From contig NZ_JAMSLR010000012.1 of the NCBI RefSeq assembly GCF_023806485.1, positions 1-64,000 on the forward strand: DNA of 64,000 bases, written 5' to 3'. The translations under genes were made by a program, and so were the position numbers. The notes under the pieces are model-generated. The model saw only the letters and a list, made by a program, of their open reading frames with translations. It made no database searches and was not told the origin of the DNA. This DNA is from Thermalbibacter longus (GTDB taxonomy: Bacteria > Chloroflexota > Chloroflexia > Thermomicrobiales > Thermomicrobiaceae). The stretch's first letter is position 1; each line of letters begins with the position of its first letter. Shown in pieces: positions 5,253-34,770 of the stretch.

Positions 5253-5715
5253 CGTGCTGCCTGCATGTCTGAGCTCTAGTTACCCCAGCTCCCTGATATG
5301 TCCCTCGTGGAGCGCTCCGGGACACAGCCGGTACGATCGGGCCTTGACAAGCATTCCGGGGACAACCTACTCTATGTCTCAGCAAGGGGGAGATCTCAGC
5401 TACATCCCACAGTGGGTCGATGATTGCGTCCGGATATGGACAACGCGGGTTATCCAGTCCCCAGCCTGCCAATAGCTGGGACAGCGGCGCTATCGTCCAC
5501 CGTGCCGCCCATCGACGCGTCATCCTTGCCTGCTCTGTGCGAGGCGTGCATGTGCACATGAGCCGAACCCACCGGCAGGCGGGTCAACGCCGACGCCGGC
5601 CACGTCTCTGTGAAAAGGATCGGACTCGAGTTCCCGAACCCGCCATGCACGGGACGAGAGCCGCGCCCGCACGTTGAGACAGTACAGTGAGAATTCTAGC
5701 GGGGAGGTTCGGCAG
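5253..5715. other. Gene-free stretch upstream of hsdM
   Basis: About 460 bases without a convincing gene. It is less GC-rich than its surroundings. It holds a possible promoter (TTGACA at 5344) and an imperfect inverted repeat, TGGACAAC/GTTATCCA at 5437-5456. No HEPN toxin frame could be read in any of the six frames. Confidence 0.5.
5344..5372 (+). promoter_or_regulatory. Possible sigma-70 promoter upstream of hsdM
   Basis: A perfect TTGACA at 5344-5349 is followed, 18 bases later, by a weak TACTCT at about 5368. It points toward hsdM, about 340 bases downstream. The weak -10 box makes this tentative. Confidence 0.25.
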
Positions 5716-7692
5716 ATGCCTCGCCGGTCGAACCAGGCGGTGCGAGACGCGAGCGGCGCTCTCATTGGGTATGAGGCCCAGCTCTGGCAGGCGGCGAACG
5801 CGCTACGCGGCTCGATGGACGCTGCCGAGTACAAGCACGTCGTCCTGGGGCTGATTTTCCTCAAGTACATCTCCGACGCCTTCGAAGAGCACCGCCGGAA
5901 GCTCGAGGCCGAGCGCGCCCAGGGAGCGGATCCTGACGATCCAGACGAGTACCGCGCCGTGAACGTCTTCTGGGTGCCACCGGAGGCCCGCTGGACTCGC
6001 CTGCAGGAGAACGCTCGCCAGCCGACGATCGGCCAGATCGTGGACGAGGCGATGGAGGCGATCGAGCGCGAGAACGAGTCGCTCCGGGGAGTCCTACCGA
6101 AAGAGTACGCCCGCCCCTCCCTGGACAAGCAGCGCCTCGGCCAGCTCATCGACCTCATCAGCAACATCGAGGTCGGCAACGGCGATGCTAGAGCCAAGGA
6201 CGTGCTGGGGAGGGTCTACGAGTACTTCCTGGGCCAGTTCGCCAGCGCCGAGGGCAAGAAGGGCGGGGAGTTCTACACGCCCCGGTGCGTAGTTCGCCTG
6301 CTAGTCGAGATGCTCGAACCCTTCAAGGGCCGCGTCTACGACCCGTGCTGCGGCTCGTCGGGCATGTTTGTCCAATCAGTGGAGTTCATCGAGGCGCACG
6401 CGACCGGCAACGGGAACGGGGGCCGGGCCCGCTCCCAGATCAGCATCTATGGCCAGGAGCTGAACTACACCACCTGGCGGCTGGCCAGGATGAACCTCGC
6501 CATCCGGGGTATCGAGGGCAGGATCGAGCAAGGCGACACGTTCCACAACGACCGCTTCCCCGACCTCAAAGCCGACTACATCCTGGCCAATCCCCCCTTC
6601 AACATGCGGGAGTGGGGCGGTGAGCGCCTGCGGCACGACAAGCGGTGGAAGTTCGGCGCTCCGCCGGTGCGCAACGCCAACTTCGCCTGGGTGCAGCACA
6701 TCATCTACCATCTCGCGCCCACCGGCTACGCCGGCTTCGTGCTGGCCAACGGCTCGATGTCGTCCAACCAGTCCGGGGAGGGCGAGATCCGCAGGAACAT
6801 CATCGAGGCCGATCTGGTGGACTGCATGGTGGCCCTACCGGACAAGCTCTTCTATTCCACCCAGATTCCGGCCTGCCTCTGGTTCATCACACGCGACAAG
6901 AGCGGCCGCCCTCCGACCGGACAAACGAAGCCTCTGCGCGACCGCCGCGGCGAGGTGCTCTTCATCGACGCTCGGAAGATGGGGCGGATGGTAGACCGCA
7001 CGCACCGGGAGCTGACAGACGAAGAGATCCAGCAGATCACCCGGACCTACCATGCCTGGCGCGGGGAGGCCGACGCCGGCGAGTACCAGGACATCCCTGG
7101 GTTCTGCAAGGGCGCCACGCTGGAGGAGATCCGCCAGCACGGCTATGTGCTCACGCCCGGCCGCTACGTGGGGACTGAGGAGTCGGTGGAGGAAGAGGAG
7201 GCGTTCGAGCAGAAGATGCACGCCCTCACAACCGAACTCCGCGAGCAGATGGCCGAAGCACGTCGTCTTGACGAGGCGATCTGGAGCAATCTACGCGAAC
7301 TCGGGTTTGACAAGGCCAGAGAGATACACGGCGGGGAAGAACAGACATTACTGGATGTTGCCGTCACCGACCTGCTACGCCGGTTGCGAATCGCCGATCT
7401 TCGATCACAGGCATCGCCAGATATCCTGGAGCTCTTAATCGAACGCATTAAGGAGGTGCGTATCGAAATTTATCCAAAGGATCACAATCCGCCGCATTTC
7501 CATGCTCGACTGAACGATGGCGATAAGAGCGCAAGCTACCGTATCGATACGCTCCAACGTCTGGCGGGCAAGTTACCAGACTACCTAGAAACGGTAGTTA
7601 TCCAGTGGGCGAGAGAACACCAGTCACTGCTATGGCAGTGCTGGTATGAGACGAGACCGACCATTGCAGCCGCAAGAGGAAACGTGAGCTAG
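5716..7692 (+). CDS. hsdM: Type I restriction-modification DNA methyltransferase subunit with DUF4160-like C-terminal fusion
   Basis: The methylation subunit of a type I restriction-modification system; it transfers a methyl group from AdoMet to adenine N6 as part of HsdM2S. The N-terminal helical HsdM_N domain (about 15-150) precedes the N6-MTase domain, with FYTPRCVV, the AdoMet loop [10 protein letters not shown] near 208 and the catalytic NPPF near 292. The ordinary family end is near residue 528 ([14 protein letters not shown]). About 130 more residues follow, containing [16 protein letters not shown], which resembles DUF4160. That tail is visibly less GC-rich than the methylase part. 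The ATG at 5716 has GGGGAGG eight bases upstream; an in-frame TTG at 5674 is less likely. hsdS begins about 160 bases downstream. Confidence 0.92.
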
Positions 7693-14558: not shown

Positions 14559-14818
14559 CTCCTGCCCCCTTTCGCTTCTCCTGGTACGCGCCGCGCGCCC
14601 GCTCGCCGTCTTCATCGAGATGACGAACGAGGAGCGGGAATTTCGACACCGAACTCGAGCCCGCAGGTGCGTGGCTTCTCTCACTGGTCCATTTCCCCTA
14701 CCAGGAGCACCGGTGAGGGTGAGAGAATTAGAGCGCACCGCCGTGCTTGGGATGATGGCACGCGTCCGAGCCACGAGCGGCCGAAGCCGCGGCACGATGC
14801 CGGAAAGGCTGTGACACG

Positions 14819-17341
14819 GTGCTGCCAGGTGGGGATGGGGCAGAAGCCGCCAGGGACAGCGACCAGCGTATCCGCGTCCTGATCGTGGACGACCACGACC
14901 TGTTCCGCGAGGGGCTGCGGCAGCTCATCGAGACCGACGACGCTATCGAGGTGGTCGGCGAGGCGGCTACCGGCGAGGAGGCGATCGAGCGCGTCCGGGA
15001 TCTCCACCCCGATGTGGTCCTGATGGACATCAGCATGCCCGGGCTAGACGGGATCCGTGCCACCGAGCATATCGTTCGCCACTTCCCGAACACCCACGTG
15101 GTCATGCTGACGATGTACCAGAACGATGAGTACCGGCACCACGCCGCCCGTGCCGGAGCCAGGGGATACCTCGTCAAGAGCATCCGGCCGGAAGACCTGT
15201 TCCAGGCGATCCGCCTAGCTGCCGAGAACGGCGCGAAGGACGAGCCAGCGCCGCCGGTCACGCTCGTGGACGAGAACCACCAGGTGACGGCGCTCGACCT
15301 CGAGCCTCCGCCACCGCCGCTCAGTCCACCTCTGCCACCGGAGCCGGAGCACCCGCCGGAGCCAGCAGCAGGCCAGCCCGTCGAGCCGGATCTGCCACGG
15401 CTCACCGATCAGGAACGCCTGGCTCTGCTGGAGGAGCGGCTGCGCCTCCTCGAGACCCAGCTCCAGCAGCTCCTCACGAGCGGCGCCACAGCGGCGCCTC
15501 CGGCTGAGCAGGTCACGACACCGCCGGCACCCGCGCCAGCACCGCCACCCCCGCCACCCGAGCCCGGTGAAGCTGAAGAGCCTCGGTCCGAAGAGCCCGA
15601 GCCATGGCAGGAAGTGATCACCTGGGAAGAACCCCCGACCTGGGAAGCGACTGAGGCCGAGCACTCGGCCACGGCAAAGCCAGCAGCCGGCCGCGCATTC
15701 GTCCGGGTCGGGGCAGTGGCGCTCGCGCTCGGCGCAGTCGCGCTGGTCGCGCTCGCGCTCATCCAGGGCTGGGTCGGCCCTGTGGCCCAGCTCATCGTTG
15801 GGCTCGCCGCCAGCGCGCTGTTGCTGGCTGGCAGTCTCCGGCTCCTCGAGCGGCAGGGGTGGCTGCTCGGGCAGATCGTCCTGGCCGCTGGGTTGCTCAC
15901 CGGCGGCTTGTGGCTGCTCGCCGGTGTGCGACTCTACGAGCTGATCCCGACCGAAGCCGGGCTGGCAGCGACCCTGATCCTGGCGACGACTGCTGGGATG
16001 ATCGCTGTCCGGGCCGGCTCGCAGGCGGGGGCCGCCCTGGCGCTCGTCCTGGCGCTGGGAATGCCAGCGCTGCTCGGACTGTCATTCACGCCGGCCACGG
16101 CCGCGTTCCTGGCAGGCACATTGATCCTGGCAACCGCGGTCACGTTGCGGCAGGGCTGGCCCTGGCTACCAGTGCTGGTCTTCGTCCTGCTCGCCCCCCA
16201 GCTCGGCCGCTGGGTCGCGCAGGGCATCTCGCTGTGGCTCGGCCTGCTCGCGCTGGCCGGCCTCTGGGCCTCGATCGCTCTGGCGGCCACCGCCGGGGCG
16301 CTCCAGAGGACTTCGCGTCGCCCGGCCCGCTGGCCGGCGCTGCTCCTGCTGGCGAGCACAGCATTCCTCATCTGGGCTGGCCTCTCGCTCCTCGATGGCA
16401 CGGCAGCGCGTTACCAGGGGCTGTTCCTCCTGGCGACCGCGCTGGCCACCGGCCTGCTCGGCGGCTACATCCTCAGTACCCGGGACGATCGTCACCCACT
16501 CGGCCTGGCCGGCCTGGCCGCCGCGCTTGCAGCACTGGCGCTGCTCTTCCCGCTCAGGCTCGATGGACCACTGGTCGCGATCGGCTGGGCGACGCTGGTG
16601 CCCATACTCGCCTGGGTCTACGACGAGCGGCGGCACGGATACGCCGGGCTCGCCGCGCTGGCACTGGGCGCGCTCGCCTTCGGCCACCTGGTGGCCGTCG
16701 AGTACCCTCCAGAGCAGCTCATGGCTGGCCTGGAACGCGATACCCCCTTCACCGGCCCTGAGAGCGGCGCTTTCGCCGCCATGCTCGGCGCGCTCGCGGT
16801 GGCGGGATGCTTCGTGCGCTCGCTGCCGGTGCGCTCATGCCTGGCGACGGCCGGCCTGCTGCTCGCGATCTACGTGCTGCCCTTCGAGACCTCGGGACTG
16901 GCGCTGACCGCCGGCTGGGCGCTGGTGTTCGTGCTGGCAGTCGCCCTCGAGCGCCGAACGAAGCTCGGTGCCACCGGCTGGCAGGGACGGCTGGGGGTTC
17001 CGCCCTTCGCCAGCCCCCTCTATCTGCCGATACTGGCTGCCGGCAGCCTCGCGCTCCTCCACGCGCTCAGCTCGCCGCTTTCTCCCGACCGGCTGGGCCT
17101 CTTCCTATTCCCGAGCGCCCCCCCGACCGGCGAGCCGGCGCTGGCAGCCGGGATCCTCATCGCCGCGGCGCTGGCAGCCGGGCGGCTCTCAGGCAGCGTG
17201 CGGGTTCGCCAGCTCGCGATCACCGCAGCGATCCTCATCACGGCCTACCTGCTGCCATCCGAGCTACCCGATGCTCCGCTCGTGCTCTCCTGGGTCGCGC
17301 TGGCCGTGGCGCTCTTCTGCGTGCTGCGGCGCTGCTCCTGA
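14819..17341 (+). CDS. Receiver domain fused to a DUF2339-like polytopic membrane protein
   Basis: An 840-residue protein. Residues about 17-135 form a NarL-type receiver with all key residues: Asp24/Asp25, phosphoacceptor Asp70 in VVLMDISMPG, Thr98 and Lys120. A linker rich in proline and glutamate follows (about 140-300), with a short coiled coil (LLEERLRLLETQLQQLL). The rest is a long run of roughly 20 hydrophobic helices resembling DUF2339 membrane proteins, which often have just such a coiled-coil N-terminus. There is no DNA-binding domain, so phosphorylation would act on a membrane protein, not on transcription. The start is a GTG at 14819 with GGAAAGG about ten bases upstream. No histidine kinase is adjacent. 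The function is unknown. Confidence 0.8.
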   Translation: MLPGGDGAEAARDSDQRIRVLIVDDHDLFREGLRQLIETDDAIEVVGEAATGEEAIERVRDLHPDVVLMDISMPGLDGIRATEHIVRHFPNTHVVMLTMYQNDEYRHHAARAGARGYLVKSIRPEDLFQAIRLAAENGAKDEPAPPVTLVDENHQVTALDLEPPPPPLSPPLPPEPEHPPEPAAGQPVEPDLPRLTDQERLALLEERLRLLETQLQQLLTSGATAAPPAEQVTTPPAPAPAPPPPPPEPGEAEEPRSEEPEPWQEVITWEEPPTWEATEAEHSATAKPAAGRAFVRVGAVALALGAVALVALALIQGWVGPVAQLIVGLAASALLLAGSLRLLERQGWLLGQIVLAAGLLTGGLWLLAGVRLYELIPTEAGLAATLILATTAGMIAVRAGSQAGAALALVLALGMPALLGLSFTPATAAFLAGTLILATAVTLRQGWPWLPVLVFVLLAPQLGRWVAQGISLWLGLLALAGLWASIALAATAGALQRTSRRPARWPALLLLASTAFLIWAGLSLLDGTAARYQGLFLLATALATGLLGGYILSTRDDRHPLGLAGLAAALAALALLFPLRLDGPLVAIGWATLVPILAWVYDERRHGYAGLAALALGALAFGHLVAVEYPPEQLMAGLERDTPFTGPESGAFAAMLGALAVAGCFVRSLPVRSCLATAGLLLAIYVLPFETSGLALTAGWALVFVLAVALERRTKLGATGWQGRLGVPPFASPLYLPILAAGSLALLHALSSPLSPDRLGLFLFPSAPPTGEPALAAGILIAAALAAGRLSGSVRVRQLAITAAILITAYLLPSELPDAPLVLSWVALAVALFCVLRRCS

Positions 17342-31092: not shown

Positions 31093-31827
31093 TCAGGCGC
31101 TCCGCCGCTCGCCTGGCAGCAGGCCGATCAGGCGGAGGAAGGACTCGATCTTCTCGAGCTCCCAGAGGCTCATGTCCACCGTCACCGTGAGCGAGATGCC
31201 GGCCTCGCCGGGCAGAGTCCAGCGCTGCGCCTGGGGGTACCCGGGTGACGCTGGCGCGAACTCCGCCGCTGACGCTTCGTCCGGCTGCGCGGCTTCTTCA
31301 GCCCGCAGCGCCTGGACACGCGCGGCCAACTCCGGAGCCAGCACCAACCGCGAGGGCTGCCCCCGAACCCCGCGCCGGAACAGCCCGAGCCCAGCCTCGT
31401 CGGCCAGCCGGAAGAAGAACGTGCGCGCTTCCTCCACGCGGTTCCGGGGCTGGCCTAGGCGCATGTCGACCTGCCACACCCGCTCGACCCAGGGGGCATC
31501 GACCACGCTGAGCCCTTCGGCCAGTGCCCGCTCGAGGACGACCCCGTAGGGCGGATACTGGAGGATCGCTCGAGCGAGCTCGAGCCGCCGCTCGTCGTCG
31601 CTCGTTGCGTAGGCCAGTCGCCGGCCAGCTTCGGTCAGCCGGATCTCCGCCCCGTCGTCCCGGCTGATCAGGCCGAGCTGCTCGAGGGCGTTCAACGTCT
31701 CCCGCAGGGTCTCGCCGCCGCCGAGCCGCGCTTCCAGCGCCGCGCGCTCGATCCCCTTGCCCTTAGCGTACTCCAGCACCTGAAAGAGCAGTCTCGGCTC
31801 GGTACGGTACGGGAGAAGGATATCCAT
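31093..31827 (-). CDS. Winged-helix-like protein of unknown function
   Basis: A 244-residue protein without a recognised family. The N-terminal 70 residues look like a winged helix (LLFQVLEYAKGKGIERAALEARL, LRETLNALEQLGLISRD, IRLTEAGRRLAY). A second helical segment with YPPYGVVLERALAEG follows, and then an acidic, alanine-rich stretch and a short beta-like C-terminus. The ATG at 31827 has GGAGGA four bases upstream, which fixes the start; the frame is open further upstream. It lies alone, divergent from the DnaD/DnaA-N fusion gene across a structured intergenic region. A DNA-binding role is likely but not shown. Confidence 0.6.
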   Translation of the reverse strand: MDILLPYRTEPRLLFQVLEYAKGKGIERAALEARLGGGETLRETLNALEQLGLISRDDGAEIRLTEAGRRLAYATSDDERRLELARAILQYPPYGVVLERALAEGLSVVDAPWVERVWQVDMRLGQPRNRVEEARTFFFRLADEAGLGLFRRGVRGQPSRLVLAPELAARVQALRAEEAAQPDEASAAEFAPASPGYPQAQRWTLPGEAGISLTVTVDMSLWELEKIESFLRLIGLLPGERRSA

Positions 31828-32703
31828 GCATTCCTCCGTTTCGATCACGTCGATGACGCGTGCTGCGTGACCATCGATTACCTCAAGTATCCCAAGCCGA
31901 AGAGTACTCGTCAAGCGATGCTCGATCGTGTGATTCGTCACGCAACTGCAATCGGCACGCATGCGAGACGAATGACGGAGGATAGCGGCCCAGCGATCCG
32001 CTACCGGCCCACCCGGCACGAGCAGCAGCGCGCACTCGTGCTCCCGCCCGGACCCGCGATACCAGGTATCGGCCTGGTCTTGCTCGTGGCGCGGGCCGGC
32101 CCGCCCGATGAAGGAGCAGCGAGCCGCATCCGCAAGGCCCGCAACGCCGCCAGGGTCGCACTCGCCAGCGGAGCCTTCGCTGGCGCACGTAGCACTCTCC
32201 CGAGACCTCGACCGGAGCGCGTCCAGCCCTCGACCTGCCTCGCCACGAAGGCCCGAGGGGCGATCGCCTCGACCGTCCCGATCGATCGGGGCGCAGCCTC
32301 AGCCACTCCCCAGAGACGCATGCCGTATCGACCTCTCGGCCTCCTCGGAGCGCGAGCCGCACGGCCGAAGGGCCGAGGAGATACCCCCCCAGCCAGACAA
32401 TCGCCACCGAACCCCTTCGGCGCACGCAGCGGCTTCGAGCCGCAGCGATGGCCCGCGCAGGCCATCGCTGCTCCGCCCGCGTCACAGCCTGCAGCGTGCC
32501 GCGCGACCATGCCCGCCGCCTAGAGGGCAGCGCGACGGCAGCCTCGCGCCAGCGCTGGCAATCGTCACTCGCGTTGGACAATAACTCCAGTGATACTTGG
32601 TTCAAAGAGAATACCAAAGTACTTGAGATACCACGTGGGAGCATGTTAGACTGTGGCTGGCGGCGATGCGAGCGGAGGCCCATGCCCAGGCGAGGGAGAG
32701 CGG
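31828..32703. other. Gene-free region rich in perfect stem-loops, possible structured RNA
   Basis: Nearly 880 bases without a credible gene. Perfect inverted repeats crowd 32057-32471. They include CGATACC-A-GGTATCG (32057-32071), an 8-base stem at 32163-32185, CCCGATCGATCGGG (32277-32290), CTCCTCGG/CCGAGGAG (32341-32380), GCGGCT-TCG-AGCCGC (32429-32443) and a 12-base stem at 32442-32471. No RNase P, tmRNA, SRP or 6S signature was found. The last 120 bases before the next gene are notably AT-rich. Confidence 0.4.
32442..32471. repeat. Perfect 12-base inverted repeat
   Basis: GCAGCGATGGCC (32442-32453) pairs with GGCCATCGCTGC (32460-32471) around a CGCGCA loop. It is the strongest stem in the structured intergenic stretch. 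Confidence 0.8.
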
Positions 32704-34770
32704 GTGGCCAGAACGGAGGACCAACCCAGCGGCGCGCCGGCGCCACCGCGGCCCCGCGCTAGCTCCGGTCGCGCGCGGGCTCAGGACGCCCAGCCGGAGC
32801 GGTCGGGCGAGGATGCCCGCCGCCGCGGCTGGTTCTGGCACTGGAACACCATCATCACCCAGTTCGCGCCGCTGATCGGCCTGAAGGGGGTCGGGCTCCT
32901 CAACTCCTACACCGTCTGGACTGACCGCCGCGACGATTCGCCCTACCACGGCTATGCCTTCCCCAGCCAACAGGCTGAGGCCACCTTCTACGGAGAGGAG
33001 CGCGCTGAACTGATCACCATCAACAAGATCCTGGTCGCCCTCGACCTGATCGAGATCCGCAAGGAGATGGTCACCCGCGCCGACGAGGCCGGCCGCCGCT
33101 GGAAAGTGCCCCACAACTTCTACCGGGTGAAGGATCGACCGGACGGCTTCGCGCTCACGCCCGAGGCCGTCCTCCGCGTCGTCGAGCTGGCCGCCCGCGA
33201 CCAGGCGGTCTACCGCTACATCCGCCACATCTTCTCCACTCGCTTCGCGCCGATCGACCGCGACAACGTCTGGCACCAGATCCTGCCGCTCGTGCGGCAG
33301 CACCCCACCTGGCAGCGGCTGGCTGCGCGCGCCGCCGACGAGGAGGCTCGCGCCTCCGCTCGTACCCGCGCCGGCCACGCCCGGCGCCGCCAGCTCCAGT
33401 CACCTGAGGCAGTGACTGATAGTCATGACCGGCCAGCAGAGAGCGAGGCACCTCTCAGCTCTGTTGGTGGGAGCAACCATGGTTCACAGCCCGCTGTTGC
33501 ACCGAGCAACAACGGTCCGCCGGCGGGTGTTGCCCGGAGCAACAGTGGTTCGGCCGCTCTCGAGGAAGGCAGTGTTGATGGGCGCAACGAAGATCGGAGG
33601 AGCAGCGTTGCACAGTCCAACACGACGTATAACCAAGAGCAAGTCACTACTACCACGACTGAGCGTATCGATCACGAGGGCGATCCTCGCGAGGCTGTGC
33701 CACCCGCTCCGGCCACCGTTAGCCGATTGCTGCCCCCAGCCGAGCTCGCGTCCGGCCCACTGCCCGAGCCTTCGCCCGAGGTGGTCACCTGCTACGAGGC
33801 CGCCAACGGCCGCCCGGCGACACCGCTCGAGCGCCAGCTCCTCGGTGAGCTCGAACGGGAGTTCAGCGAGGCGGTTCGGTCGCGAGGCGCCGAGCCCTCG
33901 GACTGGCTGGTGGCAGCCATCCGCGAGGCGGTCAGCAGCGGGTCGAGCTTCGTCGCGCCGAAGCGGATCCGCGAGATCCTGGCCCGCTGGGTCGCGGAGG
34001 GCGTTCCCGGCTCGTCCGGGCCGATTGGGGTCTTCCCCGAGCAAGGGGATGATCCGGTTCGGCCGGGCTCGCCGGCAGACGGACGCGAGGTGAACACGAG
34101 CGATGGGCCGTCCCTGGTGCGGATGCTGGATTCGACTTCCGTGCCGCCCCGTGGATCGCGGCTCCGTCGTGGCCAGCAGATCGATGCTCGTCGCGCGATG
34201 CAACGCCCGATAAGTGGCTCGTCCCTCGAGGCGCAGGGGGCGATCGACCCGGGATCGCCAGCGAGCGGGCCGGAGTTCGCCTCGCTCCCGCCGGAGGTCG
34301 TCCAGCGGCTGGCTACCGCGCTGACCGCCGCCCTCGGTATCCCGATCCAGTTCGTGACCCCTGCATCGCAAGAGACTGCTCCTCTACACCCGCCGCCGGC
34401 CACGGCCGCCCTCCCTGATATGCCCACCGTGCCGCCTGTCCACCTGCCGGGCGGGCTCACCAACCACCAGCTCTGGGCGATGGCCCAGGAGTTGCTGCAG
34501 GCGCGGCTTTCGGCCGCGAGCTTCGAGAGCTGGATCCGGCCCGCCGTGCTCCTGGGTGTGTCGGAGAGCGGCGACTTCCTCGTCGGCGCGCCGAGCCAGG
34601 CAGCCTGCCGACGGCTAGAGGGACGCCTCCGGCCTGCCGTCGAAGTGGCGCTCTCGGAACTGCTCGGCCGGCCGGTCGCTATCCGAGCGGTCGTCCTCCA
34701 GGAGTGGTTCCGCCGCGCGGGCGTCGATCGCTCGCCTGAGCAGGACGAGTCACCCGCTTCACCGGGCTAG
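32704..34770 (+). CDS. Replication-initiation-like protein: winged helix, DnaD-like and DnaA N-terminal domains
   Basis: A 688-residue protein built of replication-type modules. Residues about 42-145 look like a winged-helix DNA-binding domain (FPSQQAEATFYGEERAELI, KILVALDLIEIR). Residues about 250-310 are a low-complexity stretch with five spaced V-x-x-[SR]-N units. Residues about 362-434 resemble the DnaD C-terminal domain (CYEAANGRPATPLERQLL, RIREILARWVAEG). Residues about 586-668 closely resemble DnaA domain I (LWAMAQELLQARLSAASFESW and LLGRPVAIR). There is no AAA+ ATPase. The GTG at 32704 has GGGAG upstream; a GTG at 32653 is in frame. A role in helicase loading or replication restart is likely from the domains, but the protein appears undescribed. 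Confidence 0.75.
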   Translation: MARTEDQPSGAPAPPRPRASSGRARAQDAQPERSGEDARRRGWFWHWNTIITQFAPLIGLKGVGLLNSYTVWTDRRDDSPYHGYAFPSQQAEATFYGEERAELITINKILVALDLIEIRKEMVTRADEAGRRWKVPHNFYRVKDRPDGFALTPEAVLRVVELAARDQAVYRYIRHIFSTRFAPIDRDNVWHQILPLVRQHPTWQRLAARAADEEARASARTRAGHARRRQLQSPEAVTDSHDRPAESEAPLSSVGGSNHGSQPAVAPSNNGPPAGVARSNSGSAALEEGSVDGRNEDRRSSVAQSNTTYNQEQVTTTTTERIDHEGDPREAVPPAPATVSRLLPPAELASGPLPEPSPEVVTCYEAANGRPATPLERQLLGELEREFSEAVRSRGAEPSDWLVAAIREAVSSGSSFVAPKRIREILARWVAEGVPGSSGPIGVFPEQGDDPVRPGSPADGREVNTSDGPSLVRMLDSTSVPPRGSRLRRGQQIDARRAMQRPISGSSLEAQGAIDPGSPASGPEFASLPPEVVQRLATALTAALGIPIQFVTPASQETAPLHPPPATAALPDMPTVPPVHLPGGLTNHQLWAMAQELLQARLSAASFESWIRPAVLLGVSESGDFLVGAPSQAACRRLEGRLRPAVEVALSELLGRPVAIRAVVLQEWFRRAGVDRSPEQDESPASPG
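33463..33621. repeat. Five GTTG-N7-CAAC dyads inside the replication-type gene
   Basis: Fifteen-base dyads occur at 33463-33477, 33496-33510, 33529-33543, 33574-33588 and 33607-33621. Their centres are spaced 33, 33, 45 and 33 bases. The best copies read GTTGCACCGAGCAAC and GTTGCCCGGAGCAAC. They are in frame and encode the V-x-x-[SR]-N units of the protein. A less GC-rich stretch (about 33620-33680) follows. Confidence 0.75.

Follow-up and report, generated by a model that had tools for sequence, protein, structure and literature searches.

A gene in the window, the 64,000-nucleotide stretch of Thermalbibacter longus DNA analysed here, encodes a 688-amino-acid protein which is probably (with a probability of about 0.8) the replication initiator of a large secondary replicon, i.e., a megaplasmid or chromid, of the heat-loving Thermomicrobiales, with the origin in its own gene and a tethered DnaA domain I. 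The papers that we found do not describe how the second chromosomes of Thermomicrobia are replicated. For replicons of about 1 Mb, the gene is a concrete candidate for both initiator and origin, with predicted binding sites that are defined base by base, and would transfer the in-gene origin, a design of Gram-positive resistance plasmids, to the size of a chromid. It also suggests that proteins can borrow DnaA domain I to serve as a recruitment tag.

Domain architecture of the window protein

The sequence-only reading had described the protein as a fusion of a winged helix, a DnaD-like domain and a DnaA domain I. Profile and structure evidence shows that this fusion is real, with the modules following each other in this order from the N- to the C-terminus. 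The proposed start at GTG 32704 is reasonable as well, considering that a GAGGGAG ribosome site is located directly 5' of this codon and a promoter-like site further upstream (Table 1). The open frame that contains the gene extends from 32653 to 34770, with the coding sequence at 32704-34767 (+).

The winged helix is predicted at about residues 89-142 of the window protein. Using hmmscan on the window protein and 30 N-terminal domains, we detected no match of the N-terminal domain to any Pfam family, HTH families included, and sequence comparison with solved structures revealed nothing meaningful. By structure, the model of this domain represents one among many winged helices, with TFIIE winged helices (Z 9.4-9.5) scoring above the RepA_N-type structures 4pql_B (Z 8.9) and 4pt7_B (Z 8.8). 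Across the family, the N-terminal domains are about 80% identical on average.

Taken alone, the DnaD domain of the window protein stays below the Pfam and NCBIfam cut-offs (TIGR01446, E 0.017), and the DnaD profile had no match among PDB sequences. Despite this weakness, its assignment to the DnaD type holds, as shown by profile-profile comparison with the canonical DnaD of the same order (hhalign 94.7%, E 6e-8) and by structural comparison of the model with 2i5u (Z 9.2).

The presence of a DnaA N-terminal domain was confirmed by three approaches. Pfam DnaA_N narrowly passes its cut-off in the window protein (E 1.7e-5; 24.8 bits against 24.6) and is found at E≤0.1 in 23 of 32 family members, the best match reaching 1.8e-12; a search with the family profile of this domain leads to solved structures of DnaA domain I (best E 6e-9); and its AlphaFold2 model overlays 4tps_B with Z 13.8 and 1.5 Å over 82 residues. 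Many relatives, including those of the Sphaerobacter type, carry a tandem DnaA-domain-I-like copy in front of the last one (hhalign 97.4%), which is degenerate in the window protein. Neither AAA+ (domain III) nor the DnaA DNA-binding domain IV gave a profile match in the window protein, in agreement with their absence as originally described.

In E. coli DnaA, Trp6 belongs to the pairing surface of domain I (PMC5448010). The equivalent Trp is invariant in the last DnaA-I copy across the aligned set, whereas the residues corresponding to the E. coli DnaB contacts Glu21 and Phe46 are not retained in the window protein. Judged from these residues, the domain would favour pairing with DnaA over direct binding of the helicase. 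A DnaA_N match (E 8e-11) is also present in a 295-aa 'hypothetical' protein encoded by the Leptolinea plasmid AP024711 (L054:7941-8828, +), a plasmid without dnaA.

Table 1. Positions of the window gene, its parts and neighbour, and of the dnaB-dnaD-dnaI row on another contig
Feature	Position	Strand	Remark
Divergent neighbour	31093..32019	-	conserved across family-level relatives; weak AAA_assoc_C match
Promoter-like TTGAGA-N18-TAGACT	32623..32652	+	TG precedes second hexamer; similar sequence 5' of several relatives
Initiator-like protein gene	32704..34770	+	688 aa, GTG start, stop included
Conserved N-terminal domain	32818..33393	+	long helix, winged helix (core about 32968-33129), helical extension; predicted iteron-binding
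Iteron 1	33457..33483		dyad core GTTG-N7-CAAC 33463-33477; 14/16 consensus positions
Iteron 2	33490..33516		core 33496-33510; 15/16
Iteron 3	33523..33549		core 33529-33543; 14/16
Iteron 4	33568..33594		core 33574-33588; 12/16
Iteron 5	33601..33627		core 33607-33621; 11/16; conserved ACGTAT follows the iteron
DnaD-like domain, residues 361-434	33784..34005	+	profile-profile comparison, structure
Degenerate remnant of first DnaA-domain-I-like copy	34285..34365	+	intact in Sphaerobacter-type and other relatives
C-terminal DnaA domain I, residues 589-666	34468..34701	+	retains Trp equivalent to E. coli Trp6; Pfam, family profile, structure
Firmicutes-like dnaB-dnaD-dnaI row	L045: 2931-3551, 2168-2899, 1486-2265 (G000:C1 about 13.5-17.1 kb)	all -	

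An iteron array within the coding sequence

Across the family, three to six in-frame palindromic iterons encode the linker that connects the winged helix to the DnaD domain. Their consensus is ACC-N2-TGTTG-N7-CAACA-N2-GGT, and their spacing is mostly 33 or 45 bp. The linker peptide accordingly shows V-A-x-S-N-x-G repeats spaced 11 and 15 residues, a shadow of the DNA dyads. The array of the window gene, which had been missed when the sequence was first read, spans 33457-33627 and lies inside the coding sequence.

To compare codon usage, the repeats were picked on the protein sequence and set against the rest of the same genes. Val is encoded by GTT in 120 of 128 iteron codons (94%) but in 102 of 991 codons outside (10%; p 7e-88), Gly by GGT in 60 of 66 versus 128 of 957, and Thr by ACC in 63 of 63 versus 317 of 610, counts to be read with the caveat that these are also the genes in which we initially noticed the array. 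The conservation of the iteron codons extends over many genera. Such fixation of the third base in GC-rich genomes cannot be explained by selection on the peptide and thus points to selection on the DNA. Within the 64-kb window, full dyads with at least 14 of 16 consensus positions occur in three places, all of them in the window gene, where two weaker copies lie in phase with them. When about 800 kb of the secondary replicon G004:C2 were scanned, dyad sites scoring at least 13 appeared in the gene and nowhere else.

Distant homologs carry other arms at the same position, GTCC in G327 and CTCC in G251, with the same 4-N7-4 geometry and a spacing of 27-45 bp. That place and geometry are kept while the arms have changed is expected if replicon-specific sites co-evolve with the binding domain. 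A remote HTH_36 group, the fourth group, which was found in one genus, has GGTG-N9-CACC dyads at the same place. HTH_36 proteins from three genomes (L268, L269, and L270 in G623, G675, and G606, respectively) have a different middle domain and, within the linker, five to eight such GGTG-N9-CACC dyads, and possibly represent another type of in-gene-origin initiator; a DnaA domain I in L269 was not significant.

We also searched for other origin signals near the gene. Canonical DnaA boxes are unclustered and their counts are at background, a search for iterons or other repeats in the intergenic regions on either side of the window gene and the T. roseum gene yielded only chance-like repeats, and no GTTG dyads are present at the promoter. 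With respect to an AT-rich unwinding element, there is no extreme AT island within the gene, and AT content peaks locally at 32574, close to the promoter. An Rfam search of the T. roseum region gave no match and a terminator scan detected none.

Replicon location, GC skew and distribution

In closed genomes, the gene is found on the second replicon. The Thermomicrobium roseum homolog TRD_RS09915, annotated as 'hypothetical protein', is encoded on the 918-kb megaplasmid NC_011961, and the homolog of G004 on the 1.25-Mb contig (G004:C2) of a two-contig genome. Both secondary replicons lack dnaA and have one parB of their own, and the main chromosome of G004 carries DnaA, DnaD, and DnaI. Using DNA matches over whole genomes to assign the flanks of the window gene, we found strong matches on the G004 secondary replicon, whereas the main chromosome gave weak matches, most of which fell on a shared region of the query. 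Genes located along the window's contig also form local clusters of matches to the sampled T. roseum megaplasmid and to G011:C6. Based on this synteny, the window appears to derive from a secondary replicon.

GC skew was calculated on sampled stretches. On G004:C2, the change from negative to positive skew occurs at about 757.6 kb, with the gene at 755.9-757.9 kb, and on G005:C1 it turns at about 600 kb, with the gene at 599.8-601.8 kb. The gene is thus located within about 2 kb of the GC-skew origin in two replicons from two genera. On G022:C28, the skew turn lies 20-25 kb from the gene. In the Thermomicrobium replicons (T. roseum NC_011961, G008:C2, and G011:C6), about 180-250 kb separate the gene from the skew minimum. 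The gene is located at an inner shoulder of the curve, at the junction of the strong positive arm and a region of weak skew that is roughly 180-250 kb long; this region possibly reflects a past origin shift or a rearrangement. For the T. roseum megaplasmid, GC skew was the sole basis on which the published bp 1 was chosen, and this position lies about 134 kb from the gene. No clear skew turn is seen on the window's own contig (92 kb).

The gene is single-copy in 61 relatives. A profile of the N-terminal domain detected it in 39 Thermomicrobiales genomes, including 26 of the 28 with ≥90% completeness and ≤5% contamination. It had no match in the 98 genomes that belong to other orders of the class, showing that the suggested lineage restriction was right. 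The gene is missing from the good-quality genomes G023 and G029. Outside the class, two genomes (G251 and G327) among 400 drawn over the phylum contain a homolog; that of G327 is on a 5115-bp contig (L244, G327:C14) for which we found no terminal overlap that would indicate a small plasmid. A prophage origin, which the sequence-only reading had raised against itself, is unsupported, with no sequence-level match in 50,697 phage records or in an IMG/VR scan.

The window's genome has a separate canonical dnaB-dnaD-dnaI operon on another contig, and the DnaD encoded between dnaB and dnaI matches DnaB_2 with E 4e-10. We therefore rejected the window protein as the housekeeping DnaD of this genome. 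The true DnaA is encoded at 633 kb of G000:C1, and a search of the genome for a DciA-type loader gave nothing over the cut-off. DnaB_2 proteins are present in 53 of 61 relatives. The divergent neighbour of the window gene is possibly an accessory gene, which the initiator model does not require.

Proposed mechanism and alternative explanations

In pSK41 RepA, a RepA_N initiator, the Rep boxes are central in rep, the N-terminal domain is a winged helix, the linker is dispensable, and the C-terminal domain is DnaD-like and binds DnaG (PMC5703833). The window protein resembles it in having a winged-helix N-terminus, in-gene boxes that encode a variable linker, and a DnaD-like domain thereafter (hhalign 94.7%, 2i5u Z 9.2); the boxes between the N- and C-terminal domains are predicted sites, present as a dyad array with codon constraint at the DNA level. 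It differs by the additional C-terminal DnaA domain I, tandem in relatives, and by serving replicons of ~0.9-1.25 Mb in Chloroflexota, with the dyads in a GC-rich genome. By analogy, the window protein most likely works like a RepA_N initiator, binding the array in its gene and nucleating the assembly of the replisome. Since the RepA_N Pfam profile found no match in the window protein or the 30 N-terminal domains (hmmscan), we do not file it as RepA_N.

Other known systems share single features with the window protein. The primosomal proteins DnaD and DnaB of Firmicutes have the winged helix and the DnaD (DnaB_2) domain in common with it but differ from the window gene, which has the iteron array, the DnaA domain I and a location on another replicon. 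With DnaA, the protein shares the fold of domain I and the conserved Trp of the pairing surface, but not domains III and IV or the E. coli residues Glu21 and Phe46. In hybrid HTH_36 (pfam13730) initiators such as pPR9 Rep, the DNA-binding half is swapped together with the in-gene origin (PMC5703833). This modular swap is similar to what we see here, and L269 and L270 bear HTH_36 together with in-gene dyads, whereas the N-terminal domain of the window protein matches no Pfam HTH.

We propose that the N-terminal winged helix, probably in dimeric form, recognises and binds the palindromic iterons inside its own gene, and that the array between the winged-helix and the DnaD codons would constitute the origin or its core. 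The DnaD domain would bring in the primosome (DnaI-DnaB). With its pairing residue kept, the C-terminal DnaA domain I may tether host DnaA or self-associate, and would let an origin without DnaA boxes use DnaA. It is reasonably likely that the family represents an unrecognised Chloroflexota class of secondary-chromosome initiators, in which an in-gene iteron origin lacking DnaA boxes is combined with one or two own copies of DnaA domain I that draw host DnaA to it, and in which the DNA-binding half and the in-gene sites diverge together with fixed geometry.

In the sequence-only reading, the protein was a chromosomal helicase-loading or oriC-remodelling factor, i.e., a second DnaD-like protein working with DnaA at the main origin. 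The DnaD and DnaA domain I modules fit this role, as does the near-universal presence of the gene in the order, which is like that of a housekeeping gene, and origin remodelling or helicase recruitment is still likely. However, action as a general factor of the main chromosome is improbable, given that canonical DnaD and DnaI are encoded beside DnaB, that the gene is on the other replicon and in two cases at its GC-skew origin, that it contains specific iterons of its own, and that G023 and G029 do without it. Therefore, the window protein is probably better read as a replicon-specific initiator than as a general main-chromosome helicase loader.

Phased dyads also resemble operator or centromere arrays, and the skew of the Thermomicrobium replicons would allow a true origin elsewhere. 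The protein could then be a DNA-binding protein of the partition/centromere or autoregulatory type, which would use the in-gene sites for segregation or self-repression and leave initiation to another factor. We consider this improbable, because these replicons already have ParB, the DnaD and DnaA-I domains indicate replication, the promoter is free of GTTG dyads, and the skew turns at the gene in two genera. Least probable is that the gene is a relic of a captured plasmid or phage initiator and no longer the active origin of the replicon. Its plasmid-type architecture would agree with such a past, and the Thermomicrobium skew suggests that the active origin may have moved; the average identity of about 80% in the N-terminal domain, iteron codons conserved over many genera and the lack of viral relatives argue against it.

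Elsewhere in the window, the HsdM methylase encoded at 5614-7689 (+) has a DUF4160 match at its C-terminal end and is located in a lower-GC stretch (4-12 kb, 60-64% GC). At 14756-17338 (+), a response-regulator receiver domain and a DUF2339 membrane domain are encoded in one open frame.
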